Both the position numbers and the translations under genes were made by a program. DNA of 64,000 bases, from the NCBI RefSeq assembly GCF_000166055.1, contig NC_014664.1:3007501-3071500 (forward strand), given 5' to 3'. This stretch comes from Rhodomicrobium vannielii ATCC 17100 (GTDB taxonomy: Bacteria; Pseudomonadota; Alphaproteobacteria; Rhizobiales; Rhodomicrobiaceae). The notes below the pieces were generated by a model. That model ran no database searches, had not been told where the DNA came from, and saw nothing but the letters and a program-made list of their open reading frames with translations. The stretch's first letter is position 1. The number at the start of each line of letters is the position of its first letter. Shown piece after piece: positions 5,345 to 64,000 of this stretch.

Positions 5345-6361
5345 TGTTTGATCCCGGCATTTGATGGTGCATTATTCTCCCTCGGCTGGAAGGATGCGCT
5401 ATGGGACAAATTCTTCATGGGAGCGCCACAACGACTGAGGCGGTCCGTCGAGCGATACAGCATAGTCAAGAGAGCTTGAGGGCCCTGGCCAAGCGCTACG
5501 GCATCAACCCGAAGACGGTTTCGAAATGGAAGAAGCGCTCATCCGTCGCCGATGTGCCGACTGGACCGAAAGAGCCGAAATCCACGGTTCTGTCGGTCGA
5601 GGAAGAGGCGATAATCGTCGCCTTCCGCAAGCATACGCTCTTGCCGCTCGACGATTGCCTCTATGCGCTACAGGCGACGATACCGCATCTGACTCGCTCG
5701 TCGCTGCATCGCTGTCTTCAGCGCCACGGTATTTCTCGGCTGCCGGACGTCGAAGGCGACAAGCCCGCCAGGAAGAAGTTCAAGTCCTATCCGATCGGCT
5801 ATTTTCATGTCGACATAGCCGAAGTGCAGACGGCCGAAGGCAAGCTCTATCTCTACGTCGCCATTGACCGCACGAGCAAATTCGCCTTCGTGCAACTCGT
5901 CAAAAAGACCGGCAGGACGTCCGCTTCAGCCTTCCTCGTCGCCCTGATAGAGGCAGTTCCCTACAAGATTCACACGGTGCTCACCGACAACGGCATCCAG
6001 TTCACGTTTCCGCCGCGTTATGCCGATGGACCAACGGCCAGATACATGACGCACATGTTCGACATGCGATGCAGCGAGAACGGCATTGAGCACCGCCTCA
6101 CCAAGGTCAAGCATCCCTGGACAAACGGCCAGGTCGAGCGAATGAACCGGACGATCAAGGAGGCGACGGTCAAACGCTATCACTACGACCGTCACGAGCA
6201 GCTCGAAACCCACCTATCGGACTTCATCAACGCCTATAACTTTGCTCGCCGACTAAAGACCCTCAAAGGCCTCACGCCTTATGAGTTCATCTGTAAATGC
6301 TGGACGAATGAGCCGGAAAGATTCAAGATCGATCCAATCCATCAAATGCCGGGACTGAACA
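5345..6361 (+). mobile_element. IS481-family insertion sequence, copy 1
   Basis: The element is 1,017 bp. Its ends are imperfect inverted repeats of 23 bp with 20 matches, starting TGTTTGATCC on the left and finishing GGGACTGAACA on the right. It is flanked by a 6-bp direct repeat ACTAGC (5339-5344 and 6362-6367). TGT...ACA ends and a 6-bp NCTAGN target duplication are what is known for IS481. It is inserted in the chain-length regulator gene. A second copy of identical length lies at 57219-58235. Confidence 0.93.
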
Positions 6362-6366
6362 ACTAG
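5401..6366 (+). CDS. IS481-family transposase, copy 1
   Basis: A 321-residue DDE transposase that cuts and inserts its own element. The N-terminal helix-turn-helix is visible at about residues 12-45 (SQESLRALAKRYGINPKTVSKWKKR). The rve integrase core follows, with FHVDIAEVQ (first Asp), VLTDNGIQF (second Asp) and HPWTNGQVERMNRTIKEA (Glu), giving a complete triad. It differs from the second copy at about three residues (P/T in GIN-KT, R/K in KPA-KKF, and the last residue). The final codons AAC TAG run past the right terminal repeat into the target duplication, so the host sequence supplies the stop codon. Confidence 0.95.
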   Translation: MGQILHGSATTTEAVRRAIQHSQESLRALAKRYGINPKTVSKWKKRSSVADVPTGPKEPKSTVLSVEEEAIIVAFRKHTLLPLDDCLYALQATIPHLTRSSLHRCLQRHGISRLPDVEGDKPARKKFKSYPIGYFHVDIAEVQTAEGKLYLYVAIDRTSKFAFVQLVKKTGRTSASAFLVALIEAVPYKIHTVLTDNGIQFTFPPRYADGPTARYMTHMFDMRCSENGIEHRLTKVKHPWTNGQVERMNRTIKEATVKRYHYDRHEQLETHLSDFINAYNFARRLKTLKGLTPYEFICKCWTNEPERFKIDPIHQMPGLNN

Positions 6367-6451
6367 CGCCTGTGACCCGCATGGGCGATCGTCAGCCCCG
6401 CCCCGGAAAGTATCCTGCATAGTTTGACTCACAACCCCGAAGCTGCCGGTT

Positions 6452-6472
6452 TAGGTTCGTAGAGCGAACCTA
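6452..6472. promoter_or_regulatory. Perfect inverted repeat between divergent exopolysaccharide genes
   Basis: TAGGTTCG (6452-6459) and CGAACCTA (6465-6472) are perfect reverse complements separated by TAGAG. The repeat lies just upstream of the native ATG (6420) of the chain-length regulator on the minus strand and upstream of the plus-strand gene at 6783. There is no T-run, so an operator for the divergent promoters fits better than a terminator. The rest of 6421-6782 is AT-richer around 6660-6780, as expected for a promoter, and holds no gene I can support. Confidence 0.5.
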
Positions 6473-6782
6473 GCTACATTCTTCGAAAACAGGTCCATGC
6501 GTTGACTTTGGGCCGCTGCCCCGGACCATCCTGGCACTCGCCCCAACCCGAAAAGACATCCATAGCTCCCCTTCAGGCAAGCACCGCGTGGGGCGTCTCC
6601 CATCTTGTCCGCAATCTTCGATTGAAAACTGGCGCCAAGTTGCGCAACCTTTGGTGTATGTGTGCCGTTTTAAGGAAAAAGACATTATTCCATTAACATA
6701 TAAATTGCTCGGATACCATGATGCGTATAGCTTTCATAATGTTTCCATTTCGTGGAAAGACCTTAAACTATTAGAGGGTGTA

Positions 6783-7238
6783 ATGAAAAACCGAAAGCGT
6801 GGTCTGAGGATGCACGCGGCGTGGGCTTCGGTGTTGGCTATCGGTGCCGCCCTCATGTTTACGGCAGCGCATGCGACCGTTTTGACCAACATCCAGGGTT
6901 CCGTGATGGTTGATCGTGGAAGTGGGTTTCAGTCGGTCTCGGCGACGTCGCCGGTCGCGGCGGGTGACCGCGTTCGCGCAGTTGGGGGCAGTGCTGACAT
7001 CGTGTACGACGACGGCATAGTACAAAAGGTCGCCCAATCTCAAACCGTTGCTGTCCTTTCGAAGGGGCGGCCCGACGTGCCTTTTGTTGGGGCCGAAGGC
7101 GGCCTCGCTGGCAACTTGCCTGTGATAGGCGCTACTCTCGGTGTCGTTGGGATCGCTGCCGGCGTTGGTATGGCGATGAGCGACAGCGGTAACGATTCCA
7201 GCGGTTTAACGCCACCGGTTGAAGGGGAAAGCCCGTAA
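6783..7238 (+). CDS. Secreted FecR-like protein of the exopolysaccharide cluster
   Basis: A 151-residue protein. The ATG at 6783 follows the ribosome binding site AGAGGG by about six bases. It has a signal peptide (MKNRKRGLRMHAAWASVLAIG..., cleavage near AHA). The segment NIQGSVMVDRGSGF...AGDRVRAVGGSADIVYDDG resembles the beta-strand repeat seen in FecR-type periplasmic domains. A Gly/Val-rich hydrophobic segment (LPVIGATLGVVGIAAGVGMAMS) near the C-terminus could anchor it or pack in a membrane. It is followed after about 20 bases by the polymerase gene. Its role in polysaccharide assembly is inferred from context. Confidence 0.7.
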   Translation: MKNRKRGLRMHAAWASVLAIGAALMFTAAHATVLTNIQGSVMVDRGSGFQSVSATSPVAAGDRVRAVGGSADIVYDDGIVQKVAQSQTVAVLSKGRPDVPFVGAEGGLAGNLPVIGATLGVVGIAAGVGMAMSDSGNDSSGLTPPVEGESP

Positions 7239-7258
7239 TCCTGAGTCGGGGTATACCG

Positions 7259-8716
7259 ATGTTGTTTGGGTTTTGCGTCGCTGTCTTAGTGCTGGCGATT
7301 CTTCTCGGGGGCGGCACGAGCAGCGGCTTCCTGGGAGACGTAGTGATACAGGTGGCGGCGGTACAGCTGCTCTGCTTAGCGCTTTGGCCGGTGTTAAAAG
7401 GGGCTGGCTGGGACGGGCAGCGGCGCGCTATAGGCGTTGTTGTTCTTCCGGCTGTGGCCGCTACTGCGCTGCAGGTTCTCCCGCTTCCGCTCCATATCTG
7501 GTCCGGAGGTGAGGCTATACTAGCGCGTGACGGTGCCACGGGGATTGTGGGGTCGAGAGCGTGGGACACATTATCTCTCACCCCTGAGGCAACTTGGGCA
7601 GCGGCTGTATCTCTCCTTGTTCCGATTGCGATTTTTTGTGCGGCTGTTCGCCTGAATTTCCAGCAGAGAGAAACGCTTTGCTGGGTCGTGCTCGGACTGG
7701 GTGCGCTGTCGCTGATGATTGGCTTTCTTCAGGTGGCGCAGGGCCCCGGAAGCAGCCTCCGCTTCTACAGTCACACGAATCTGACGGAAGCTGTGGGCTT
7801 CTTCGCAAACCGCAATCACTTTGCGGCCCTTCTGGTCGTGTGCCTGGTGCTGATTGGGTATTGGGTAACGACCGCCAGAGTGGAGGTCCGGAGGTCATCT
7901 GCCAACCTCCTCCTTTGGGCGGCGGTAGCACTCGTCTCCGTGGCATTCATGGCCGGCCTGATGATGGCAAGATCGCGAGCCGCGGTATCGCTGGCAATGC
8001 TAGTGATCGGAGGGGTCGCTGCCGTTTTTTACGCCACCCGAAAGGGCGAGGTATTCGGTCGGGACAAGCGGACGCCTGCGAAAGCTGTCGTAATGGTTGC
8101 GATTGTCGCGATGCTTCTTGCGATGCAGTTCGGCCTCGGTCGCCTTCTGACGCGCTTCGAAGAGGATTCCGTTGACAGTCTTCGCATCCGCTTCGCCGGT
8201 GCCGCTGTCCATACCGCAATGAGATCGCTGCCTTTTGGTACCGGTCTGGGCTCCTTCGTGCCAGTCTATGGTGCGGTGGAGGCTAGCGATCAGGTGCGCC
8301 CTTCCTATGCTAATCGTGCCCATAATGATTTTGCTGAAATCTTTCTTGAGACCGGGATACCGGGGGCAATCCTCGTCTTGGGTTTCGTCGCTTGGTTCTT
8401 GCGACGGAGCTGGGCCGTTTGGAGGGCGCCTCCCGGTGGCGAGGCGACGCGTGTAACGGCGCTGAACCGAACTGCGATGCTGATTGTCGCTGTCCTGATA
8501 CTCCATTCGCTTGTCGACTATCCTCTCAGAACTACCGCTTCGGCTGCCATCTTTGCATTCTTCTGCGGTGTACTCGCCGTACCGGCGACCTGCGAGCCCG
8601 TCACCAGGCCCAGACAGCAGCGCAACCCGCGCCATTCAGGCGAAAAAGTGAGACGGGAAGCTTGGACCGGCGAGGTGAGCTGGCCGGAAAAGTGGCGGAA
8701 AACTGCGCCAAGCTAG
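7259..8716 (+). CDS. O-antigen ligase/polymerase family (Wzy-like) membrane protein
   Basis: A 485-residue integral membrane protein with about ten or more hydrophobic helices. The signature of the family is visible: YANRAHNDFAEIFLETGIPG at about residues 348-367, the periplasmic loop that carries the conserved Arg/His and precedes helix LVLGFVAWFLRR. Such proteins polymerise or ligate lipid-linked oligosaccharide units on the periplasmic face. It lies between the secreted protein and the initiating sugar transferase, so polymerase of this exopolysaccharide is the likeliest role. The last 40 residues are hydrophilic and poorly conserved. Confidence 0.85.
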   Translation: MLFGFCVAVLVLAILLGGGTSSGFLGDVVIQVAAVQLLCLALWPVLKGAGWDGQRRAIGVVVLPAVAATALQVLPLPLHIWSGGEAILARDGATGIVGSRAWDTLSLTPEATWAAAVSLLVPIAIFCAAVRLNFQQRETLCWVVLGLGALSLMIGFLQVAQGPGSSLRFYSHTNLTEAVGFFANRNHFAALLVVCLVLIGYWVTTARVEVRRSSANLLLWAAVALVSVAFMAGLMMARSRAAVSLAMLVIGGVAAVFYATRKGEVFGRDKRTPAKAVVMVAIVAMLLAMQFGLGRLLTRFEEDSVDSLRIRFAGAAVHTAMRSLPFGTGLGSFVPVYGAVEASDQVRPSYANRAHNDFAEIFLETGIPGAILVLGFVAWFLRRSWAVWRAPPGGEATRVTALNRTAMLIVAVLILHSLVDYPLRTTASAAIFAFFCGVLAVPATCEPVTRPRQQRNPRHSGEKVRREAWTGEVSWPEKWRKTAPS

Positions 8717-54734: not shown

Positions 54735-56498
54735 ATGCTGGATTTGCAGACGGAAGCCGCGCTGAAGAGCGCGAGCGATGCGGCGGGGTTCTCGGGTTGG
54801 GAAGGCCGCATTCCCATCGTGCTTGGCGGCATCGGCCACCGCGAGTTGGGTGATCTGGAGCGCATCGCCGGCCTTGTCCGCAAAGAGTGTGCTGCTCTGA
54901 AAGAGCGCTATCCGCACTCGCCTTTCGTCATCCTCTCGCCGCTGGCCGAGGGTGCGGATCGGCTCATCGCGCGCGTCGTTATGGATGAACTCGGAGCGAA
55001 CCTCATCGCCGTGCTGCCCATGCCGCCGGAGGACTACAAGAACGATTTCCCGAGCGAGGCGTCCAAGGCAGAATTTGACGACCTTCTGGCAAAAGCCCTC
55101 TGCGTGAAGCTCGCGCTGACGCCTGACGATCCGGCATGGAAGCAGCCCGGCCCCAAGCGCGACGAGCAATATGCCCGTGCGGGTGCGATCATCGCGGACC
55201 ATGCGCAAGTCTTGTTTGCCATCTGGAACCGCCTGCCCGCCAAGGGCGTTGGCGGCACCGCCGACCAGGTCAAGTGGTTCGACCGCGGCTTCGCTCCCGC
55301 CGCCTATTCGTTATACAACGGGCAGATTTCGCCGCTCGATCCGCCGGAGCCCGGCCTTCGTATCGGCATCGATCCAGTGTCCTTCGATGTCGAACTCGTC
55401 GAGAATCCTCTAAGCGGATCGACGGATGCAAACCCGAAAAGAAGCAACATCCGGGCGATCATGCATCGCACCGAACGCTACAATTGCGACGTCGTGAGCC
55501 ATCGCGCCGCCATCGCTGCAAGCAAGCCCATCGCGGTATTAAGCAAAGGCGCAGTCGCCGAGAGCAGGCTCGCCGACAGCGTCTTCCAGGCCGCCGACGG
55601 AATGTCGGCGCATTTCGCGACAATCGCGCGTTTCAGTGACAAGGTTGTATATGCGCTCGCGATTGTCGCCATCGTTTCCTTCAATTTTATGAATGTGAGC
55701 GCCTATGCTGTGTGGCTCTATCTCGGCGTCACGCTCCTGATGTTGGCCCTGTATTTGCGGATCAGATGGCGCTCTATCGACAATCGGTTCCTCGAATACA
55801 GATCACTTGCGGAGGCTTTGCGCGTCTTCTGCTTCTGGCGCCACGCGGGCGTCAAGCGCTCCGTCTGGCTCTCTTTTCTCTCACGGCAAGCGGGCATCGT
55901 GCATTGGCTCAGGCATGCGACAAGAACCGTGGAGTTCTGCCAGGACAGCGTTGCCACCGCGCACACGGTTACGCAGCAGAACTTGGCCGACGTGAAAAAG
56001 CATTGGGTGCAGGATCAGGTGGATTGGTTCGCGACAAGAATTCCGCAGCACGAAGGTCGAAGAATGGGGCTCAGAACCCTGTGGCGCACAGCCATCGGTC
56101 TTTCTTTCGTGCTTTCGTTTGCCCTGTTACTGATGACGTTCACTCCGGCTGCGCTCTTCTTCGGCTCTTCCGCCGAGGCAGACGTAAGCTTGTGGAAGAA
56201 ACTCGTGGAGCCGGAACCCTACGGCAATCTCTGGCAAGCGGTGTTGAGCTTCCTTGCCGCAGGCGGCTTGGCTGCGCGCGGATTTAGCCAGCGCCGGGGG
56301 GATGCCGAACTCGCCAAACAGTACGCGTCGCAACAACAGATCTTCAAGACGGCAAACGATATGCTGGACAAAGTCGGCCAGCCCGACGCCGAATGGAAGC
56401 CGGAAGAGATCCTCAGAACGCTGGGCAAGGAAGCGTTGGAAGAGCAGGCGGAATTTGTCTGGCTCAGACACGCGCGCCCCTTCGAGATGCCTCAATAG
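54735..56498 (+). CDS. SLOG-like nucleotide-sensor domain fused to a four-helix membrane module
   Basis: 587 residues. The N-terminal part has a Rossmann-like pattern close to the SLOG superfamily (PIVLGGIGHRELGD at residues about 26-39, then FVILSPLAEGADRLIARVVMDELGANLIAVLPMP, and RDEQYARAGAIIADHAQVLFAIWN). The C-terminal part holds two transmembrane pairs (VVYALAIVAIVSFNFM, VWLYLGVTLLMLALYL; AIGLSFVLSFALLLMTF, LWQAVLSFLAAGGLAARGF) with long helical cytoplasmic stretches, reminiscent of SLATT-type effectors. Known SLOG-SLATT pairs are predicted defence systems: a nucleotide signal triggers membrane disruption. The assignment is by pattern. A small gene follows in the same direction. Confidence 0.65.
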   Translation: MLDLQTEAALKSASDAAGFSGWEGRIPIVLGGIGHRELGDLERIAGLVRKECAALKERYPHSPFVILSPLAEGADRLIARVVMDELGANLIAVLPMPPEDYKNDFPSEASKAEFDDLLAKALCVKLALTPDDPAWKQPGPKRDEQYARAGAIIADHAQVLFAIWNRLPAKGVGGTADQVKWFDRGFAPAAYSLYNGQISPLDPPEPGLRIGIDPVSFDVELVENPLSGSTDANPKRSNIRAIMHRTERYNCDVVSHRAAIAASKPIAVLSKGAVAESRLADSVFQAADGMSAHFATIARFSDKVVYALAIVAIVSFNFMNVSAYAVWLYLGVTLLMLALYLRIRWRSIDNRFLEYRSLAEALRVFCFWRHAGVKRSVWLSFLSRQAGIVHWLRHATRTVEFCQDSVATAHTVTQQNLADVKKHWVQDQVDWFATRIPQHEGRRMGLRTLWRTAIGLSFVLSFALLLMTFTPAALFFGSSAEADVSLWKKLVEPEPYGNLWQAVLSFLAAGGLAARGFSQRRGDAELAKQYASQQQIFKTANDMLDKVGQPDAEWKPEEILRTLGKEALEEQAEFVWLRHARPFEMPQ

Positions 56499-56536: not shown

Positions 56537-57025
56537 ATGCCATCGGATGACCGCCTCTTTGTAGACCGGCTCTCGCCGCGAATCGCGGCGGCACTCGACG
56601 GGCAGGGCCGTCGCTACAGGAAGGCGGCGGAGGTTCGAGCGGAGCGCGTTTCCTCGCCGAGATCGATAAACACCATCCTCTCGAACGGCGCAGTGGAAAC
56701 AAAAAACCGCGCCGAGCCGGGCGACTACATAGTGACGGCGGAAACCGGTGAGCGTTGGGTCGTCAAGCCCGACACTTTCGTCAAACGCTATTCTCTGAAA
56801 CCCGGCCGGAAGAACGTCTACCTCGCGCGCGGCGAGGTGGTCGCGGTTCCTAACCCGTTCGGACGACCGATCGAGATCCTCGCGTCGTGGGGAGATAAGC
56901 AGGTGGGGGCTACCGATTGCATGATCGTCGATGTCTTCTACCCGGCAACCGGCACACGCGAAGGGCAGCCTTATCTGATCGCACATGCCGAATTCGGGAA
57001 GACTTATCGATCTGTGAAACGGTGA
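56537..57025 (+). CDS. Small partner of the SLOG-like membrane protein
   Basis: 162 residues from ATG 56537; the open frame reaches back into the previous gene. The central motif NRAEPGDYIVTAETGERWVVKPDTFVKRYS and the following strand-rich end (YLIAHAEFGKTYRSVK) form a compact beta domain of a recurring PGDYxVT type that I cannot name. It is 38 bases after the SLOG-like gene, so a two-gene unit is likely. Confidence 0.6.
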   Translation: MPSDDRLFVDRLSPRIAAALDGQGRRYRKAAEVRAERVSSPRSINTILSNGAVETKNRAEPGDYIVTAETGERWVVKPDTFVKRYSLKPGRKNVYLARGEVVAVPNPFGRPIEILASWGDKQVGATDCMIVDVFYPATGTREGQPYLIAHAEFGKTYRSVKR

Positions 57026-57218
57026 GGATGCCGCTAGCAGTGTTTCGTGGGCTTCTACCTGAAAACGAGCATGTCCGTGGTCATGGAACATAGATGAACA
57101 TCACTGCCATGCTCGATCGAGGCACGTCTCCTACTGGAGGTCTTGTCGAAGTGATATTGGTAGTCGTCAATCGTGCTCGCGGTTGTATTGCATCACGATC
57201 TCTGCACTCGGGCTAAGA

Positions 57219-58235
57219 TGTTTAATCCCAGATTTTGATGGTGCATTATTCTCCCTCGGCTGGAAGGATGCGCTATGGGACAAATTCTTCATGGGAGCGC
57301 CACAACGACTGAGGCGGTCCGTCGAGCGATACAGCATAGTCAAGAGAGCTTGAGGGCCCTGGCCAAGCGCTACGGCATCAACACGAAGACGGTCTCGAAA
57401 TGGAAGAAGCGCTCATCCGTCGCCGATGTGCCGACTGGACCGAAAGAGCCGAAATCCACGGTTCTGTCGGTCGAGGAAGAGGCGATAATCGTCGCCTTCC
57501 GCAAGCATACGCTCTTGCCGCTCGACGATTGCCTCTATGCGCTACAGGCGACGATACCGCATCTGACTCGCTCGTCGCTGCATCGCTGTCTTCAACGCCA
57601 CGGTATTTCTCGGCTGCCGGACGTCGAAGGCGACAAGCCCGCCAAGAAGAAGTTCAAGTCCTATCCGATCGGCTATTTTCATGTCGACATAGCCGAAGTG
57701 CAGACGGCCGAAGGCAAGCTCTATCTCTACGTCGCCATTGACCGCACGAGCAAATTCGCCTTCGTGCAACTCGTCAAAAAGACCGGCAGGACGTCCGCTT
57801 CAGCCTTCCTCGTCGCCCTGATAGAGGCAGTTCCCTACAAGATTCACACGGTGCTCACCGACAACGGCATCCAGTTCACGTTTCCGCCGCGTTATGCCGA
57901 TGGACCAACGGCCAGATACATGACGCACATGTTTGACATGCGATGCAGCGAGAACGGCATTGAGCACCGCCTCACCAAGGTCAAGCATCCCTGGACAAAC
58001 GGCCAGGTCGAGCGAATGAACCGGACGATCAAGGAGGCGACGGTCAAACGCTATCACTACGACCGTCACGAGCAGCTCGAAACCCATCTATCGGACTTCA
58101 TCAACGCCTATAACTTTGCTCGCCGACTAAAGACCCTCAAAGGCCTCACGCCTTATGAGTTCATCTGTAAATGCTGGACGAATGAGCCGGAAAGATTCAA
58201 AATCGATCCAATCCATCAAATGCCGGGACTAAACA
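57219..58235 (+). mobile_element. IS481-family insertion sequence, copy 2
   Basis: 1,017 bp, the same length and orientation as copy 1. Ends TGTTTAATCC and GGGACTAAACA are imperfect 23-bp inverted repeats with 19 matches. The flanks carry GCTAAG on the left (57212-57217, with one extra A before the end) and TCTAAG on the right, so the target duplication is imperfect. It lies between the SLOG-like pair and the DGR template repeat. Confidence 0.9.
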
Positions 58236-58240
58236 TCTAA
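57275..58240 (+). CDS. IS481-family transposase, copy 2
   Basis: 321 residues, differing from copy 1 at about three positions. Helix-turn-helix and complete DDE core (FHVDIAEVQ, VLTDNGIQF, GQVERMNR) are intact, so it is probably active. The last codons ATC TAA again extend past the terminal repeat into the flanking target sequence. Confidence 0.95.
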   Translation: MGQILHGSATTTEAVRRAIQHSQESLRALAKRYGINTKTVSKWKKRSSVADVPTGPKEPKSTVLSVEEEAIIVAFRKHTLLPLDDCLYALQATIPHLTRSSLHRCLQRHGISRLPDVEGDKPAKKKFKSYPIGYFHVDIAEVQTAEGKLYLYVAIDRTSKFAFVQLVKKTGRTSASAFLVALIEAVPYKIHTVLTDNGIQFTFPPRYADGPTARYMTHMFDMRCSENGIEHRLTKVKHPWTNGQVERMNRTIKEATVKRYHYDRHEQLETHLSDFINAYNFARRLKTLKGLTPYEFICKCWTNEPERFKIDPIHQMPGLNI

Positions 58241-58525
58241 GGGGAAGTGCGGGGTTTGCCAATTTGGCGGGACCATCACGGCCGCTTGCGTCATACCGAG
58301 GCGGAAGAACCAAAGCGGAAGCTCGGGGCGGCGACATGCGCAACGTGAAAAAGCCAGCCGCGCCGGTCGAAGCCCGTGCGTCTTCCAAGACCGGCGCGGC
58401 TGTGGCTGGAACATTTCCCAGCCCTATCATCATGAACGGCCCTGAACGCTTAATCGGGGGCGGCGGTAAAGCGTTCCCCATCGTGCACGCCCGGCGCGAC
58501 CGTGATCGCACCGGCTCTGGCGACG

Positions 58526-58651
58526 AAGCGTGCTGGCAAGCCGAAACCCGTTGTTGTTGTTCCGGTTGTCGGTTGTGTTCCTGTTGCGGTAGGCCGCGCG
58601 GAGGTTCTGTGGATTGTTGTTCCAGGAGCCGCCGCGAAGAACGCGAAGAGA
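58526..58651 (-). repeat. DGR template repeat (TR)
   Basis: A non-coding 126-bp segment read on the minus strand. It matches VR1 (58841-58966) and VR2 (62636-62761) without gaps. Read in the VR frame it is rich in AAC codons (TGG AAC AAC AAT ... CGG AAC AAC AAC AAC GGG), which adenine mutagenesis can turn into many residues without stops. The constant 3' part is GGGTTTCGGCTTGCCAGCACG. Every difference from either VR lies at a TR adenine, except one C (58532 on the plus strand G) that is A in both VRs. Confidence 0.97.
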
Positions 58652-58759
58652 AACGGGCCGGTCAGGGAGCGTGATGTCACATCAAGGCTCGATGAAAATT
58701 ATCGCCGATTCCCTCTATGCGCGGAGGACGAAAAAATGTGACGCACAAAAAATTTGCCG

Positions 58760-58774
58760 CCCGCCTTCGGCGGG
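58760..58774 (-). terminator. Hairpin and T-run after the TIR-FGE target gene
   Basis: On the minus strand CCCGCC-GAA-GGCGGG is followed within four bases by AAATTTTTTG. It lies 57 bases after the target stop and between VR1 and TR. It may end the target transcript or serve as the VR-distal hairpin known to help DGR retrohoming. Confidence 0.65.
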
Positions 58775-58831
58775 ACGCCCAGGCCGAGTGTTCGACAACC
58801 GCAAGTGCATAGGGGGTAAAGTTGTAAAGAT

Positions 58832-60238
58832 TCAAGAAGTAAGCGTTCTGGCAAGCCGAAACCCGTTGAGGTTGTACCGGTTGTCGGTAGTGATCCTGTT
58901 GCGGTAGGCCGCGCGGAGGTACTGTGGAATGCCGATCCAGGAGCCGCCGCGAAGAACGCGAAGAGATGCGTCTCCGCCCGGCCAGATTGAGCCGTCCTCA
59001 GGTGCGCCACGGTAATTCCCATGCCCGTTGTCGGCGCACCATTCCCAAACGTTTCCGTGAACCTGATAAAGCCCCCAGGGGTTGGCCTCAAAACTCTCCA
59101 CCGGCAGGGTGCGTTTGCGATACTCCCCTTTCTTGCCGGACCCGTAGGTGTAATTGCCGTCATAATTCGCCTGCGCGGTGGATATGTCCGCGCCCCACCA
59201 GAACGGCGTCGCTGTCCCGGCGCGGCAGACATACTCCCATTCGGCTTCGGACAGCAGGCGGTAGGGTTTGCCGGTCGTCTTTGAAAGCCATGCGCAGTAA
59301 GCCGTGGCGTCGTCCCAATTCACGCCCACGACAGGATGGCGCGCCGTTTGCTGAAAGCCGGGATTGCGAAAATTGCGGCCCTTGCGCGTCTCCCACTTTT
59401 CGTTCTCAAACGTAAACATCTCGTCGGGCATGGCATGGCCCGTCGCCTCGACGAAGGCGGTGAATTCGCCGAGAGTGACGGCAAACCGCCCGGCCGCGAA
59501 CGGAGCCTTGATCGCGACGGAATGCTGAGGCCCTTCCCGGCCATCGTCCGGCCTTCCAACCTCGTCCGGCGGCGAACCCATGACGAACTGTCCGGCGGGC
59601 ACAACCACCATCTCCGGCGCAAGCGGGTGATCCTTGAACCATTCGGTGCGTCCGGCGCCCGGCAAGAACCGCCCGTTGGGAGCGCCGTGAACGTTGAGGG
59701 CGCCGACTTTAATGCGCCCGTCCTCGGCATCGCGCGGAGCCGGCGCGGAAGTATCCGGGCCGGCGAATTTGTGGCCGCGCATCAATTGAATCGATCTCAC
59801 CACACCATCGATCAGGGCTTTGGCGTCGGCCTCGAAACTCACCCGCTGCAACCTTGTGGCTTGGAGCGCGAGCAAGGGACGGATCGAGGCAGGCAATTGG
59901 GAGGCAAGAGGCACAGGCGCGTCGCCCAGAAAGACCGGCGCCACCGGGATCTTGCGTGCGAGCGCGCTCTCAATCTCCGTAAGGACGTAATCGGGCTGTC
60001 CGCTTGCCGCCCGCAACTCAAACTCGGTCACCCAAGAGCGGCCGATGAGAACCAGCATGAGATCGCAGGCCGCCACTTGGCTGTCGAGCCACGCCGCCCA
60101 CTGATAGCCGAGCGGGATGTTGCCGTCGATGTCCATGAAGACATCGCCCCTTGGAAACTGCGCGGTGAGCCGCTCATAGAGACGGTCGGCCCAAGCCTCC
60201 GCGTCAGAGCGCCGGTAATTGAGAAAAATTTTGGCCAT
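58832..60238 (-). CDS. DGR target 1: TIR domain fused to FGE/SUMF1-type variable domain
   Basis: 468 residues. TIR domain at about 1-150: KIFLNYRRSDAEAWADRLYERLT, VFMDIDGNIPLG, ACDLMLVLIGRSWV and DYVLTEIESALARKIPVAPVFLG, with a Glu at the NADase position. After a linker, the formylglycine-generating-enzyme-like C-type-lectin fold spans about 215-468 ([70 protein letters not shown]). VR1 covers about residues 425-466. The FGE domain is a known DGR display scaffold, not an enzyme here. Binding through it presumably controls the TIR signal. Confidence 0.95.
   Translation of the reverse strand: MAKIFLNYRRSDAEAWADRLYERLTAQFPRGDVFMDIDGNIPLGYQWAAWLDSQVAACDLMLVLIGRSWVTEFELRAASGQPDYVLTEIESALARKIPVAPVFLGDAPVPLASQLPASIRPLLALQATRLQRVSFEADAKALIDGVVRSIQLMRGHKFAGPDTSAPAPRDAEDGRIKVGALNVHGAPNGRFLPGAGRTEWFKDHPLAPEMVVVPAGQFVMGSPPDEVGRPDDGREGPQHSVAIKAPFAAGRFAVTLGEFTAFVEATGHAMPDEMFTFENEKWETRKGRNFRNPGFQQTARHPVVGVNWDDATAYCAWLSKTTGKPYRLLSEAEWEYVCRAGTATPFWWGADISTAQANYDGNYTYGSGKKGEYRKRTLPVESFEANPWGLYQVHGNVWEWCADNGHGNYRGAPEDGSIWPGGDASLRVLRGGSWIGIPQYLRAAYRNRITTDNRYNLNGFRLARTLTS
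58841..58966 (-). repeat. DGR variable repeat VR1
   Basis: 126 bp at the 3' end of target 1. It has ten differences from TR in the variable zone, all at TR adenines, giving W-I-G-I-P-Q-Y-L where TR would encode W-N-N-N-P-Q-N-L, and changes such as N to I, Y and L further on. The 3' flank reads GCCAGAACG against GCCAGCACG in TR, as expected for IMH versus IMH*. Confidence 0.97.
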
Positions 60239-60324
60239 GAAAAATTTCGCGCCGCCGAATTTGAGACCAATAAGCCTATCATTCTATAAATCGCATTCGC
60301 TGCCGCGAGCAACTTGTTACCGCG

Positions 60325-61422
60325 CTAAAGGCCCGGGATGACTTCAAACCAGCCGCCTTCGAACAGCGCCTGACGCAGCCGGAAGCTGTCGGCGTGGCTC
60401 GCATGCGCGATCCAGGATTTGACCCGCGCCTCCACTTCGCCTTGCGTGACCGTGCCCGCGCGCCATCGATCTCTGAGACCGCGTAGCCGGTTGCGGAACC
60501 GGGCGACATTGCCGTCCAGCAGTTTCCTTCGGCCACGGCCGCCCTTGGCGGTTCGCCGCGGACCTGGGTGCAGTTCAAAGCCCAAAAACGGCGAAGGCTC
60601 GGCTACCGGCAGGATCAGCGTTTTGCGGGGATGCAGCTTCAAGCGCCGCCCCTCCAGGCAGCGCTCGATCTTCTCCCGCCAGGTTGCCAGTATGCCGGGA
60701 TCGTCGTGAAACAGCGCAAAATCGTCCACGTATCTCACGTAGGGCGCGCCCAGCTTTTCGATGACCCAGTGGTCGAAGCGGTTGAGATAAAGGTTCGCAA
60801 AGAACTGGCTGGTCAGATTGCCGATCGGCAGCCCGCGCCGCCGCGTGTAGGGCGTGAAAAGATCGTCGCCCGGAAAATGCAGTTCGACCGGCTCTTGGCT
60901 GTTGGAGCAATCGACAATGAGGTCCATAAGCCAAAGCGTGCGCTCGCAAGCGATCTTGCGGCGGAACTCGGCTTTGAGAATTTCATGATCGATGGCGGGG
61001 AAATAGCGAAAGATATCGGCGCGCAAGACATAGGAATGGTTATCGCGGTAGCGCTCATAAAGCCGGATGGCTTTGTGGGTCCCTTTGCCGGTGCGGTTTG
61101 CGAAGGTGTGGTCCGTGAAGCCCGCCTCGAACAACGGGCAGACAACGGCGCAAAGCGCGTGATGGACGACACGGTCGCGAAACGGGGCGGCGGAAATGAG
61201 CCTCTCTTTTGGATCCTTGACGAGGATTTCGACGTATCGCCCAGGACGGTAAGACCCGTCCCGCAATTCTCTCTCAAGCCTCAAAATTTCGCGTTCGAGA
61301 TTTGCCATGAACGCCGCCGCGCCCGGCTTCTTGCGCTTGCCGTTGATGGCTGTCCGGGCTGCCGCGCGGAGCGCCTTGAAACTCGCGATGCGCTCAAAAA
61401 GACCTTCATGCCGTTTCGGCAT
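60325..61422 (-). CDS. DGR reverse transcriptase
   Basis: 365 residues. Domain landmarks: FRDRVVHHALCAVVCPLFEAGF (81-102), YVLRADIFRYFPAIDH with the first catalytic Asp (131-146), GLPIGNLTSQFFANLYLN (197-214), whose IGxxxSQ in place of QGxxxSP is the DGR hallmark, YVRYVDDFALF with the catalytic Asp pair (228-238), and PFLGFELHP (278-286). The C-terminal part is basic. It copies TR RNA with adenine misincorporation and, with Avd, delivers it to the VRs. It lies 86 bases upstream of target 1 on the same strand. Confidence 0.96.
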   Translation of the reverse strand: MPKRHEGLFERIASFKALRAAARTAINGKRKKPGAAAFMANLEREILRLERELRDGSYRPGRYVEILVKDPKERLISAAPFRDRVVHHALCAVVCPLFEAGFTDHTFANRTGKGTHKAIRLYERYRDNHSYVLRADIFRYFPAIDHEILKAEFRRKIACERTLWLMDLIVDCSNSQEPVELHFPGDDLFTPYTRRRGLPIGNLTSQFFANLYLNRFDHWVIEKLGAPYVRYVDDFALFHDDPGILATWREKIERCLEGRRLKLHPRKTLILPVAEPSPFLGFELHPGPRRTAKGGRGRRKLLDGNVARFRNRLRGLRDRWRAGTVTQGEVEARVKSWIAHASHADSFRLRQALFEGGWFEVIPGL

Positions 61423-61466
61423 GGGGACGTCTCAGGCGCATCGCCGAACGCAGCGAACGGCGCCCG

Positions 61467-61775
61467 TCACGCAGCGGCCGTCAGCGGCTTGGCGCGCTCG
61501 ACCCGCTCCCGTTCATGCGGATCGTGCATCGCGTCCCACAGATCGCAGCGCCGCTGCACATTCAGCCAGAACTCGGGGCTGTTGCCGAACACGCGGGCCA
61601 AAATGAGCGCGGTGGGAGCGGTGACGGCGCGGCGCCCATTGCAGAGTTCGTTCACATGCTTGCGTGGAACGCCCATGGCCTCAGCCAGCGCGCTTTGCGT
61701 CAACCCCAAGGGCTCCATGAACTCCTGGGTTAGGATTTCGCCGGGGCTCGCCGGCTTGCGCTTGGTGATCAACAT
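61467..61775 (-). CDS. higA: HigA-type antitoxin
   Basis: 102 residues from the ATG at 61775, preceded by GAGG; a further Met at 61787 overlaps the toxin stop. KPASPGEILTQEFMEPLGLTQSALAEAMGVPRKHVNELCNGRRAVTAPTALILARVFGNSPEFWLNVQ is a textbook HigA/VapI helix-turn-helix protein. It lies between the toxin and the reverse transcriptase. Confidence 0.92.
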   Translation of the reverse strand: MLITKRKPASPGEILTQEFMEPLGLTQSALAEAMGVPRKHVNELCNGRRAVTAPTALILARVFGNSPEFWLNVQRRCDLWDAMHDPHERERVERAKPLTAAA

Positions 61776-61783
61776 CGCATGCC

Positions 61784-62080
61784 TCACTGATAAATGTGGC
61801 CGTCCAGATAAACCCCTGTTGCTTCACCCCGGCCGCCATCCCATTGAAAGATAAGCCGCCATTGCTTGTTGACGCGGATGGAATGGAAGCCTTCAAGATT
61901 GCCGCGCAGCTTTTCGAAGTGGTTGCTGGGCGGAACCCTCAAATCTCGGTCCGCCGTCGCGTCGTCGAGCATCTGTAGTTTGCGAAACAGGCGGCTTTCG
62001 AGATCGGGCGGGATTTTCTTCGACCGGACGTCATCGACGAAGAAATCGCGCAACCAATCGTCCCGGAAGCTTACAATCAC
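61784..62080 (-). CDS. higB: HigB/RelE-type toxin
   Basis: 98 residues. FRDDWLRDFFVDDVRSKKIPPDLESRLFRKLQMLDDATADRDLRVPPSNHFEKLRGNLEGFHSIRVNKQWRLIFQWDG, given by its key positions (helical N-terminus, L-x-P-P-S-N-x-x-E-x-L-x-G, Y/H-S-I-R-V-N-x-x-W-R-L-x-F), is the HigB mRNA-interferase family. Toxin-first order is normal for higBA. The pair interrupts the DGR gene run. Confidence 0.93.
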   Translation of the reverse strand: MIVSFRDDWLRDFFVDDVRSKKIPPDLESRLFRKLQMLDDATADRDLRVPPSNHFEKLRGNLEGFHSIRVNKQWRLIFQWDGGRGEATGVYLDGHIYQ

Positions 62081-62143
62081 GCGCCCGCTCCTGCGTGAGG
62101 CAATGTACCACCCAACGGGTCACGGAGCAACCTCAAATTCACG

Positions 62144-62509
62144 TCAGGCTGCCTGGCGAGGGGCTGCGCCGGCTTTTGCCCAGCCGCCGACCAGCCGGCC
62201 GATTTCATCGATAGCGCGAACCGCGTGCTCATAGCGCCCAAGATCGAGATAGCGCAGCTCGCATGCCATGCGAATGAAGATGCGCAACTTTTCAAGGCCA
62301 AGGTTGGCGCGGTCGAGATGGGCGCGGCGGTCGCGCGTGTAGGTGGCCTCGATTAAAGCCTCAAGCACATCGAGCGCCGTACCCTGAATACGGTCGCCGA
62401 GCAGAAACTTTTGCGCACGCGGAAATTTCTCTACAGTAGGAACCAGCCAGAGCAGGAACTTTTGATGGGCTTCAAGAGCCGGGCCTGTGCGTCGCGCGTT
62501 CTCTTTCAT
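62144..62509 (-). CDS. avd: DGR accessory variability determinant (Avd)
   Basis: 121 residues from ATG 62509. It is a four-helix-bundle protein with the Avd pattern: LEAHQKFLLWLVPTVEKFPRAQKFLLGDRIQGTALDVLEALIEATYT, then ANLGLEKLRIFIRMACELRYLDLGRYEHAVRAIDEIGRLVGGW. Avd forms a barrel that binds the reverse transcriptase and TR RNA and is needed for retrohoming. It lies between target 2 and higB. Confidence 0.93.
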   Translation of the reverse strand: MKENARRTGPALEAHQKFLLWLVPTVEKFPRAQKFLLGDRIQGTALDVLEALIEATYTRDRRAHLDRANLGLEKLRIFIRMACELRYLDLGRYEHAVRAIDEIGRLVGGWAKAGAAPRQAA

Positions 62510-62538
62510 GCCCGAAGAATGCCTCGATTCCGTAGCGA

Positions 62539-62560
62539 CCAGGGAGCTAAAGCTCCCTGG
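62539..62560. repeat. Hairpin after target 2 (VR-distal inverted repeat)
   Basis: CCAGGGAGCT (62539-62548) and AGCTCCCTGG (62551-62560) are perfect 10-bp arms around AA. It lies 57 bases beyond the stop of target 2 and before avd. It could be a terminator or the cruciform element used in DGR target recognition. Confidence 0.6.
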
Positions 62561-62617
62561 ACCCACAGCTTTCGCTCGGCGTGTGTGGAAAAAGAAGAGC
62601 CACAAGACGTAAAGGGG

Positions 62618-64000
62618 CTAAGTGGAAGGAGGTAAAAGCGTTCTGGCAAGCCGAAACCCGAGGCTGGTGTACCGGATGCCGGTTGCGTTCCGGAGGCGGT
62701 AGGCCGCGCGGAGGTTCTGTGGATTGCTGCTCCAGGAGCCGCCGCGAAGAACGCGAAGAGAACATCCTTCGGTTGTATACGCTTTGCCGTCGGTTGGCGC
62801 GCTTTCATAGGACCCTTCATAGCAATCCTCGGTCCAGGAAAACACGTTGCCATGCATATCGAAAAGGCCCAAAGCGTTCGCTTTGTAAGACCCCACCTTT
62901 GCCGTCGTTCCGTTGCCGTCATCGCAAATGTCGCTGGTTTGAATAGTGGCGTTCTGCCGCCGCGCCAACTCTCTAAGCGATAGATCGGCGAAATTGCCGT
63001 ACTCACAAAGCTGCTTCGGATCGTCGCCAAAGCTGAAAGCCGTCTGCGATCCCGCACGAGCCGCGTATTCAAACTCGGCCTCCGAGAGCAGCCGGTACTC
63101 CTTTCCGGTCATGAGCGTAAGCCACGCCGCATATTGCTTGGCGTAATGCCAAGGGACGTTGATGACAGGCTCGCGCCCTTTGCCATATGTGGCGGCAACG
63201 TCGGCGGGGCAGCCGCCGAGCGCCACGCATTCGTCCCATTCCGCCCAGGTGACAGCATACTTGCCGATGGCGAAGCGACCGATCTTGACGCGATGCCTCG
63301 GACCTTCATCGTCGCCACGGCCCTCTTCGGCTTTGGGGATAGGCCCCGCTTCGGGCTTGCCGTCGAGCCCGATGACGGGCGTCTTGCCGTCCGGCGAGCC
63401 CATGACAAACGTCCCCGCCGGTAGCGCAACCATCTCGGGGCAGCGCCCGTGCACACACTCCTGAAAGCTCTCAAGCGGTTTCAATTCGCGTTCTTTGTCC
63501 TCGCTCAGCACGCGCGGCATAAAGTTTTTCGCCAGGTAAGGCCGCGCGGTTCCGTACCAGTGGACCTGCTCGCCAATCCATTCCTTTTTGATAATACCGG
63601 CAAGGCCAATAATGGTGGCGGCCATGAGCACGGTCACCGCCACCTGCATGCGCTTACGAAAGCGCACGCTCGCACGGTCCTTTTCCGCCGCCGCAAGCTC
63701 CGCAGCCCTGCACGCGGCGAGATAGTCGTGATCGGCCGGCTCCAAGTTCGCAGCAAGGTCCGGCCGCTCCTGCAACCCATCAGCAGCTTTCAGACGCTCG
63801 CCCGAATGAGAAAGCCAGGTCGCGGCCTTGGCGTTCGCCGCCCAATCGCGGCTTGCGCGCTTGATGCCGTCGAGCACCGTCAAGAAGCCCGCGTCGTCCG
63901 CAAGCCAGCCCTGCAAAAGTCCCCATTGGCGCAACAGCGCCTCGTGCGCCGGCTCGATGGTCGTCTCGCCGGTCTCCTTTGAAACATCGGTCGAAAGCAA
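62618..64000 (-). CDS. DGR target 2: STAND-like region, membrane helix and FGE-type variable domain (N-terminus outside window)
   Basis: 460 residues visible; the frame is open to the window edge. The first 110 residues (TTIEPAHEALLRQWGLLQGWLADDAGFLTVLDGIKRASRDWAANAKAATWL) match the end of nSTAND-type NTPase modules that are often preceded by TIR or peptidase domains. A transmembrane helix follows (MQVAVTVLMAATIIGLAGII). The FGE domain runs from MVALPAGTFVMGSPDG to LRVLRGGSW with YRLLSEAEFEYAARAG and GNVFSWTEDC. VR2 lies at residues about 414-455 of the visible part. Confidence 0.92.
   Translation of the reverse strand: MLSTDVSKETGETTIEPAHEALLRQWGLLQGWLADDAGFLTVLDGIKRASRDWAANAKAATWLSHSGERLKAADGLQERPDLAANLEPADHDYLAACRAAELAAAEKDRASVRFRKRMQVAVTVLMAATIIGLAGIIKKEWIGEQVHWYGTARPYLAKNFMPRVLSEDKERELKPLESFQECVHGRCPEMVALPAGTFVMGSPDGKTPVIGLDGKPEAGPIPKAEEGRGDDEGPRHRVKIGRFAIGKYAVTWAEWDECVALGGCPADVAATYGKGREPVINVPWHYAKQYAAWLTLMTGKEYRLLSEAEFEYAARAGSQTAFSFGDDPKQLCEYGNFADLSLRELARRQNATIQTSDICDDGNGTTAKVGSYKANALGLFDMHGNVFSWTEDCYEGSYESAPTDGKAYTTEGCSLRVLRGGSWSSNPQNLRAAYRLRNATGIRYTSLGFRLARTLLPPST
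62636..62761 (-). repeat. DGR variable repeat VR2
   Basis: 126 bp at the 3' end of target 2. It has thirteen differences from TR in the variable zone, all at TR adenines (for example AAC to AGC, CTC, ATC, TAC and ACC, and AGG to CGG). The 3' flank has the same C-to-A difference as VR1. The encoded stretch reads [20 protein letters not shown]. Confidence 0.97.

Follow-up and report, generated by a model that had tools for sequence, protein, structure and literature searches.

Multiple variable repeats (VRs) have been counted in 271 of 948 diversity-generating retroelements (DGRs), and 122 cassette patterns are described (PMC6642488, available text). DGR targets with STAND, TIR, CHAT and FGE domains, including one locus with two FGE targets, are described in the accessible part of PMC10907252, and for phage DGRs the available portion of PMC3240598 gives an initiation of mutagenic homing (IMH) site with 5 mismatches and a downstream hairpin. 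Here we describe a DGR of Rhodomicrobium vannielii ATCC 17100, located in a 64,000-nt stretch of DNA (the window) that corresponds to positions 3007501-3071500 of the single-contig genome of 4,014,469 bases (G000); positions given below are window positions. We consider it very probable that this chromosomal DGR diversifies two NLR-like conflict sensors from one template, a reading that draws on mismatches confined to template adenines, the kinship of the reverse transcriptase (RT), an Avd protein, an RNA at the template repeat (TR) and two targets of TIR-FGE and TIR-nSTAND1-FGE make-up. As judged from its sequence, the DGR is complete and ordinary in kind, and it has probably been active recently. 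Because multiple VRs and varied cassette patterns are well represented among surveyed DGRs, neither the two targets nor the unusual gene order is new (PMC6642488, available text).

Results

Organization of the locus

All parts of the DGR lie on the minus strand, in the order target 2 (with VR2), avd, higB, higA, RT, target 1 (with VR1) and TR. The original prediction had placed a complete DGR within 58526..64000, and the RT, Avd, one TR and two VRs were all identified there on the one strand. Its extent needs amending, as target 2 continues beyond the window end to G000:C1:3073126, and its inventory, correct for the parts named, had omitted three things: the HigBA pair, the location of the TR after target 1, and the conserved RNA found at the 3' end of the TR.

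Template and variable repeats

A 126-nt repeat is present in three copies (search of 57000-64000): the TR at 58526..58651, recognized by the repeat search and the mismatch pattern, VR1 at 58841..58966 and VR2 at 62636..62761, with VR1 and VR2 being 91% and 89% identical to the TR. VR1 differs from the TR at 11 sites, 10 of which are TR adenines (hypergeometric P 3.0e-6), and VR2 differs at 14, 13 of which are TR adenines (P 2.4e-8). The same count for the DGR of Bordetella phage BPP-1, taken as a control, gave 18 of 22 mismatches at A. The sole non-adenine mismatch is at the same site in both VRs, where the TR has C (58532) and the VRs have A (58847 in VR1, 62642 in VR2); this one shared difference is the 3'-end difference by which IMH* and IMH are distinguished in DGRs, and we refer to it as the boundary base. 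Pooled by codon position, the 25 mismatches comprise 13 A sites at position 2, 9 at position 1 and 1 at position 3, along with the 2 C sites at position 3, and the TR read in the target frame holds 11 AAY codons. In both targets the VR lies at the C-terminal end, in the FGE family part, as expected for DGR targets of the C-type-lectin fold.

No further TR or VR copy was found in the 4.01-Mb genome at E <= 0.001, so the absence of a second TR upholds the proposal that one RT and one TR serve two targets flanking the RT gene. When the entire window was scanned for repeats on the same strand (minimum 60 nt and 75% identity), only TR/VR1, TR/VR2, VR1/VR2 and one pair of insertion sequences came up. 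VR1 and VR2 agree with each other at 94 of 94 non-A TR sites and at 15 of 32 A sites. The FGE-coding DNA ahead of the two VRs is 57% identical (360/630), and the 30-90 nt immediately upstream are 42-46% identical between VR1 and VR2 and 27-34% between the TR and each VR. Because the VRs match at every non-A site despite 57% identity in the flanking DNA, the pattern is best explained by repeated error-prone copying of the TR segment and not by duplication. VR1, VR2 and TR would otherwise have to be ordinary duplicates, or gene conversion products, of FGE paralogues, which are indeed numerous (7 FGE-related pieces in G000 with the TR counted, and 19 in G002, a genome of the same genus). We give this practically no credence, since the mismatches are confined to template adenines, no other site differs before the boundary base is reached, and RT and Avd genes adjoin the repeats.

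Inverted repeats follow both VRs at a distance of 60-80 nt, whereas the distance in phage DGRs is 4-34 bp (PMC3240598, available portion). The one behind VR2 (62539..62560, minus strand) has a 10-bp stem and lies 76 nt 3' of the VR; by analogy with BPP-1 it may be a target-site hairpin (PMC3240598, same portion). Behind target 1, a hairpin followed by a T-run (58748..58773, minus strand) resembles a terminator and possibly also acts as a target-site hairpin. The motif CTTTAC is present within 60 nt 3' of both window VRs and of 19 of 27 VRs overall, and follows 0 of 17 TRs. A conserved stretch resembling TCTTTACCTCTTTACC and a GC-rich hairpin were also seen 3' of many VRs in related loci (L031-L047, L067), across phyla.

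Reverse transcriptase and Avd

The RT gene (60325..61422, minus strand) is an intact open reading frame (ORF) for 365 aa with a match to Pfam RVT_1. DGR RTs carry a motif of the [ILV]GNxxSQ type, and the predicted IGNLTSQ and YVDDF motifs are both present, within LPIGNLTSQ and RYVDDF. Placement of the RT in a tree, a check set beforehand, grouped it with DGR RTs and apart from group II, RT-Cas1 and other RTs, on a branch supported at 99/98. The tree has 31 rows, with 8 group II, RT-Cas1 and other RTs set as the outgroup, and omits the partial RTs of L044, L045, L047 and L050 and two secondary ORFs (in L007 and L041). In it, the window RT stands with the DGR RTs of BPP-1, of cyanobacterial and Chlorobi plasmids and of an Aeromonas phage, and with relatives that bear a TR and VRs; the branches of BPP-1 and some others are long, and support for the branching order within the DGR RTs is weak. 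The nearest row is that of G002, 72% identical over 356 columns. By sequence, the best solved relative is 8ub7 (E 7.8e-42); its listed name is Reverse transcriptase, and we take it to be the BPP-1 complex.

General RT models for group II introns and retrons do match the protein, as they would if the RT came from a group II intron, a retron or another defence system and the repeats were unrelated to it. The scores, however, are 126.9 bits for the group II model (cut-off 300) and 42.1 for the retron model (cut-off 235), and together with the tree position and the IGNLTSQ motif they make such an origin extremely improbable. Two other RT-like genes were noted in the genome, at G000:C1:2045974-2046747 and 3455728-3456483; one is group II-like, below cut-off (238.2 vs 300 bits), and the other is more divergent.

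RT matches at E <= 0.001 were found in 8 of 61 related genomes, and beyond its own genome a close relative was found only in G002 (6.1e-169; next 5.0e-19). A scan of genome contigs gave 19 RT loci, those in the tree coming from Pseudomonadota, Acidobacteriota, Binatota and Latescibacterota. A phylum-wide search brought no further close relative, with 4 of 398 genomes matching at E <= 1e-60, the window's own included. RT relatives from plasmids and phages were at most 47.6% identical among the matches listed (30 and 40). A viral origin was considered and rejected: a search of IMG/VR with the single RT gave no match, one with the RT alignment gave 4 loci of which one was close (L161, 63%), and the viral search returned no exact match to the spacer motif. 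We also observed a 7-bp inverted repeat with a 3-nt loop at 61407-61423, which spans the start codon of the RT gene, with T-rich sequence after it; L067 has a similar palindrome at its RT start, and G002 has none.

The predicted Avd protein is encoded at 62144..62509 (minus strand). It scores 107.8 bits against NF033474, above the curated cut-off of 80, and matches Pfam bAvd; the ORF is open from 62605, and the ATG at 62509 is its likely start. In an order-wide search, 26 of 397 genomes had an Avd match at E <= 0.001, 6 of them above the cut-off.

Targets

Target 1 (58832..60238, minus strand) is a TIR-FGE protein of 468 aa (Pfam TIR_2 and FGE-sulfatase). Target 2 is a TIR-nSTAND1-FGE protein of 1002 aa (Pfam TIR_2, nSTAND1 and FGE-sulfatase; ORF 5619-8627 of the extended stretch L004), of which the C-terminal 460 aa lie in the window (62618..64000, minus strand) and which starts beyond it. 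Both thus carry an effector domain, TIR with or without nSTAND1, fused to a variable FGE end, the architecture of DGR-diversified STAND/TIR conflict sensors, and from this domain make-up they are predicted to be conflict sensors of a published kind. The structure model of target 1 has a mean pLDDT of 66.4 and is confident only in the FGE part (from about residue 200), which matches PvdO (5hha, E 7.7e-27) and a Treponema DGR variable protein (2y3c, E 5.7e-16). Three scanned target or FGE genes of other relatives encode a kinase, caspase or ankyrin part; in G002, the target has a TIR domain.

A boundary base conserved across related loci

In 17 related loci, the boundary base occupies one position just before the TR sequence ACGC, where a pyrimidine (C or T) stands in all 17 TRs and a purine (A or G) in each of the 25 VRs paired with them. 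The rows for this count were picked by hand; in an automatic table 24 of 24 VRs differ from their TR, the G002 locus, one base off there, being read separately. The 18 positions ahead of the boundary have 0 to 3 mismatches of at most 25. Unpaired VR-like segments were left out: those of L044 (2), L078 and L080 have a purine and that of L065 (CGT) a pyrimidine, for a total of 29 of 30 with these included. L065, which has no paired TR, counts against the pattern and would break it if the segment belongs to this clade as a VR. Neither TR nor VR was found in L029, and two of the four segments in L047 lie about 270 codons before the protein end and may not be VRs. L047 and L067 are absent from the RT tree, their membership in the clade resting on RT similarity. 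Not every case is independent, several loci being near-duplicates (L031 and L035, from one genome; L038 and L047).

In four loci (12 VRs) the boundary codon is CGN, in which a purine is not forced, while AGR arginine codons do force a purine in the VR. Since the change is silent in CGN codons, the constraint likely acts at the nucleic acid level. In L161, too, the TR carries C at the boundary, and outside the clade L046, L052, L054 and L089 have the same codon in TR and VR. In BPP-1, a spacer adenine primes the cDNA within the TR 3' junction, IMH* (PMC12875486, available text). The boundary base of the present clade may perhaps mark the cDNA start, such that the sequence upstream would be copied and the boundary base would not, keeping the VR distinct from the TR. 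If so, the pattern predicts the cDNA start site in this DGR clade. To our knowledge, there have been no biochemical studies of this lineage.

A conserved RNA at the template repeat

We built an RNA model (R1) from an alignment of 16 relatives, some of them near-duplicates, that covers the TR 3' end and the bases after it; the window was excluded. RNAalifold predicted 19 pairs on these 16 sequences, 14 of which have at least one sequence changed on both sides. In the closing stem, the TR end (G, one unpaired base, ACGCTC) pairs with the spacer, whereas the boundary base faces a C and does not pair. The model matches the window at the TR 3' end and spacer (58404..58552, minus strand) with 58.7 bits (E 1.3e-13); the next matches (E 0.013 and 0.02) fall at the VR1 and VR2 ends, where the TR part is shared, and all else in the window has E >= 0.28. 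With 82.4 bits (E 1e-19), the model also finds L161, which is outside the training set. Weaker matches are stretches of the Prosthecochloris (E 7.5e-6) and Microcystis (E 1.5e-4) plasmids; the model has no match to the BPP-1 TR or to L144, the re-fetched RT stretch of L029. Rfam gave no family at threshold, the ctRNA_pGA1 hit overlapping the TR spacer being at chance level (22.4 bits vs gathering 45, E 0.58).

Beyond the spacer, a perfect 14-bp inverted repeat followed by CTTTTT (58355..58402, minus strand) is likely the 3' end of the TR RNA. Over 58340-58660, this strand folds more stably than shuffled sequences do (z -2.41), 2 of 100 of which fold as well, and 11 terminator-like sites in the region are mildly above the chance level of 7.7 (sd 2.5).

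HigBA between avd and RT

Two further minus-strand genes separate avd from RT: a higB-like toxin gene (61784..62080; Pfam HigB-like_toxin, PF05015, E 1.5e-31) and a higA-like antitoxin gene (61467..61787; TIGR02607, 113.3 bits, cut-off 47.7). The toxin gene precedes the antitoxin gene with a 4-nt overlap, the type II HigBA arrangement, and higA stops 44 nt before the RT start. DNA similarity to G002 stops at the avd end and restarts at the RT start, leaving about 740 extra bases in the window. Among the 23 of 26 loci in which the gap between avd and RT was measurable, it is 724 nt in the window, 103 in L037, 280-420 in L063, L064 and L091, which are less like the window RT, and -26 to +14 in the other 18. 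The idea that HigBA is a usual part of DGRs finds no support, since of the 26 loci with an RT or Avd match only the window's own has HigA or HigB matches (1/26); across 29 Avd loci from the order-wide search (about 1.5 kb each side), HigA or HigB was likewise found only at the window locus. HigB relatives are widespread (22 of 61 genomes), and a HigB/HigA pair near an FGE gene in G002 (L120), where the stretch fetched holds no DGR, was therefore taken as chance.

The pair is most likely a lineage-specific insertion; no inverted repeats were found ahead of higB. Alternatively, HigBA could be a switch and not a passenger: because the RT starts 44 nt behind higA, a HigA-repressed higBA promoter could drive the RT. 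No promoter or operator for this was seen at the locus, and we regard the idea as quite improbable. If it were true, loss of HigA under stress would raise RT expression and, with it, hypermutation of both TIR sensors, so that receptors would diversify in response to stress. A literature search joining DGR and HigB returned no paper; the toxin-antitoxin and DGR literature was checked in part, for DGR and FGE, so such an insertion may be reported.

Position of the TR and evidence against current activity

The TR is directly behind the RT in 15 of 17 loci with a TR, and in G002 it lies between the target and Avd. G002 also has a truncated TR-like piece behind another FGE gene (L118:3306-3354, minus strand, in G002:C27); the 8-kb stretch analysed there contains no RT match. 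Its spacing of about 305 nt is like that of a target and its TR, which suggests that target and TR are an old unit in the loci of this genus.

Several features weigh against a DGR that diversifies two sensors. The TIR part of the target-1 structure model is unreliable, HigBA splits avd from RT by 724 nt, the TR lies behind target 1 at 315 nt from VR1 (351 nt from the VR in G002), and the spacer of the window RNA has about 29 nt extra. No sigma-70-like promoter was found in 58200-64000 (1.2 expected by chance), and a separate TR transcript is thus hypothetical; with terminator-like sites only mildly in excess as well, the limits given for the TR RNA are putative. The DGR may therefore have worked recently and now be silent or weak, with avd and RT split by HigBA and the TR distant from the RT. 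The unusual order and the HigBA insertion, the lack of a promoter-like site and an insertion sequence about 290 nt beyond the TR would fit such a loss, as would the truncated TR in G002, an indication that such elements decay in the genus. We nevertheless consider silencing unlikely, since reading frames are open in the RT, in avd and in both targets, the RNA of the spacer has been conserved, and the VRs have their only non-adenine difference at the shared boundary base.

Surroundings of the locus

Upstream of target 2 are a gene for a CHAT-AAA-TPR protein with long, near-identical TPR units (L004:10690-14199, or G000:C1:3075189-3078698) and type I restriction genes (L004:15339-19657). As both lie within about 11 kb, the setting looks like a defence neighbourhood. 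On the other side, insertion-sequence copies with an integrase-core transposase are located at 57234-58235 and 5360-6361 and are 99.2% identical; the former is the one that ends near the TR. At 54735-56498 (plus strand) is a 587-aa ORF that matched nothing in Pfam or PADLOC at E <= 0.001 and appears to contain membrane stretches.

Discussion

Our preferred reading, a working DGR with two sensor targets, can be set out as a sequence of steps. An RNA with the TR and the conserved spacer would be made, ending at the 14-bp hairpin, and RT and Avd would use it, with the cDNA primed near the TR boundary base and misincorporation opposite adenines. The cDNA would then replace VR1 or VR2, so that the template's Asn codons (AAY) would give other residues on the C-type-lectin-like tip of the FGE part. 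That tip would sense an invader molecule, and the signal would be turned into a defence or death output by TIR, in target 2 together with nSTAND1. For present activity, the priming site, the ligand and the output, we infer by homology.

One template that diversifies two different TIR-type sensors on one chromosome would be a candidate generator of a bacterial immune-receptor repertoire. Follow-up is better spent on the HigBA pair between avd and RT, on the placement of the TR after a target and on the clade's boundary base than on the two-target layout.

The BPP-1 DGR (mtd, bbp7, TR, brt; L051) shares with this locus the RT kinship and the adenine-specific change from TR to VR, as well as, in the available portion of PMC3240598, a TR/VR boundary where differences begin and, if the inverted repeats behind the window's VRs act as such, a downstream hairpin. 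It differs in having one phage tail target and a TR between avd and brt, and the RNA model of the present clade misses its TR. HigBA type II toxin-antitoxin systems have the same HigB and HigA families and the same overlap, whereas the window pair sits inside a DGR operon, an arrangement that no other compared locus has. For DGRs of multicellular bacteria (STAND, TIR, CHAT and FGE/CLec targets), the available text of PMC10907252 describes no HigBA or comparable insertion; it does describe FGE-type target ends fused to conflict domains and two targets per DGR, as here. The locus of the same genus (G002:C222, L048) differs in that one target was seen, its TR precedes Avd, Avd and RT overlap, and HigBA is lacking. 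It likewise has a TIR-FGE target and an Avd, with its TR 351 nt from the VR, its RT is 73% identical to that of the window, and 12 of 12 of its VR mismatches are at A when compared with its own TR.

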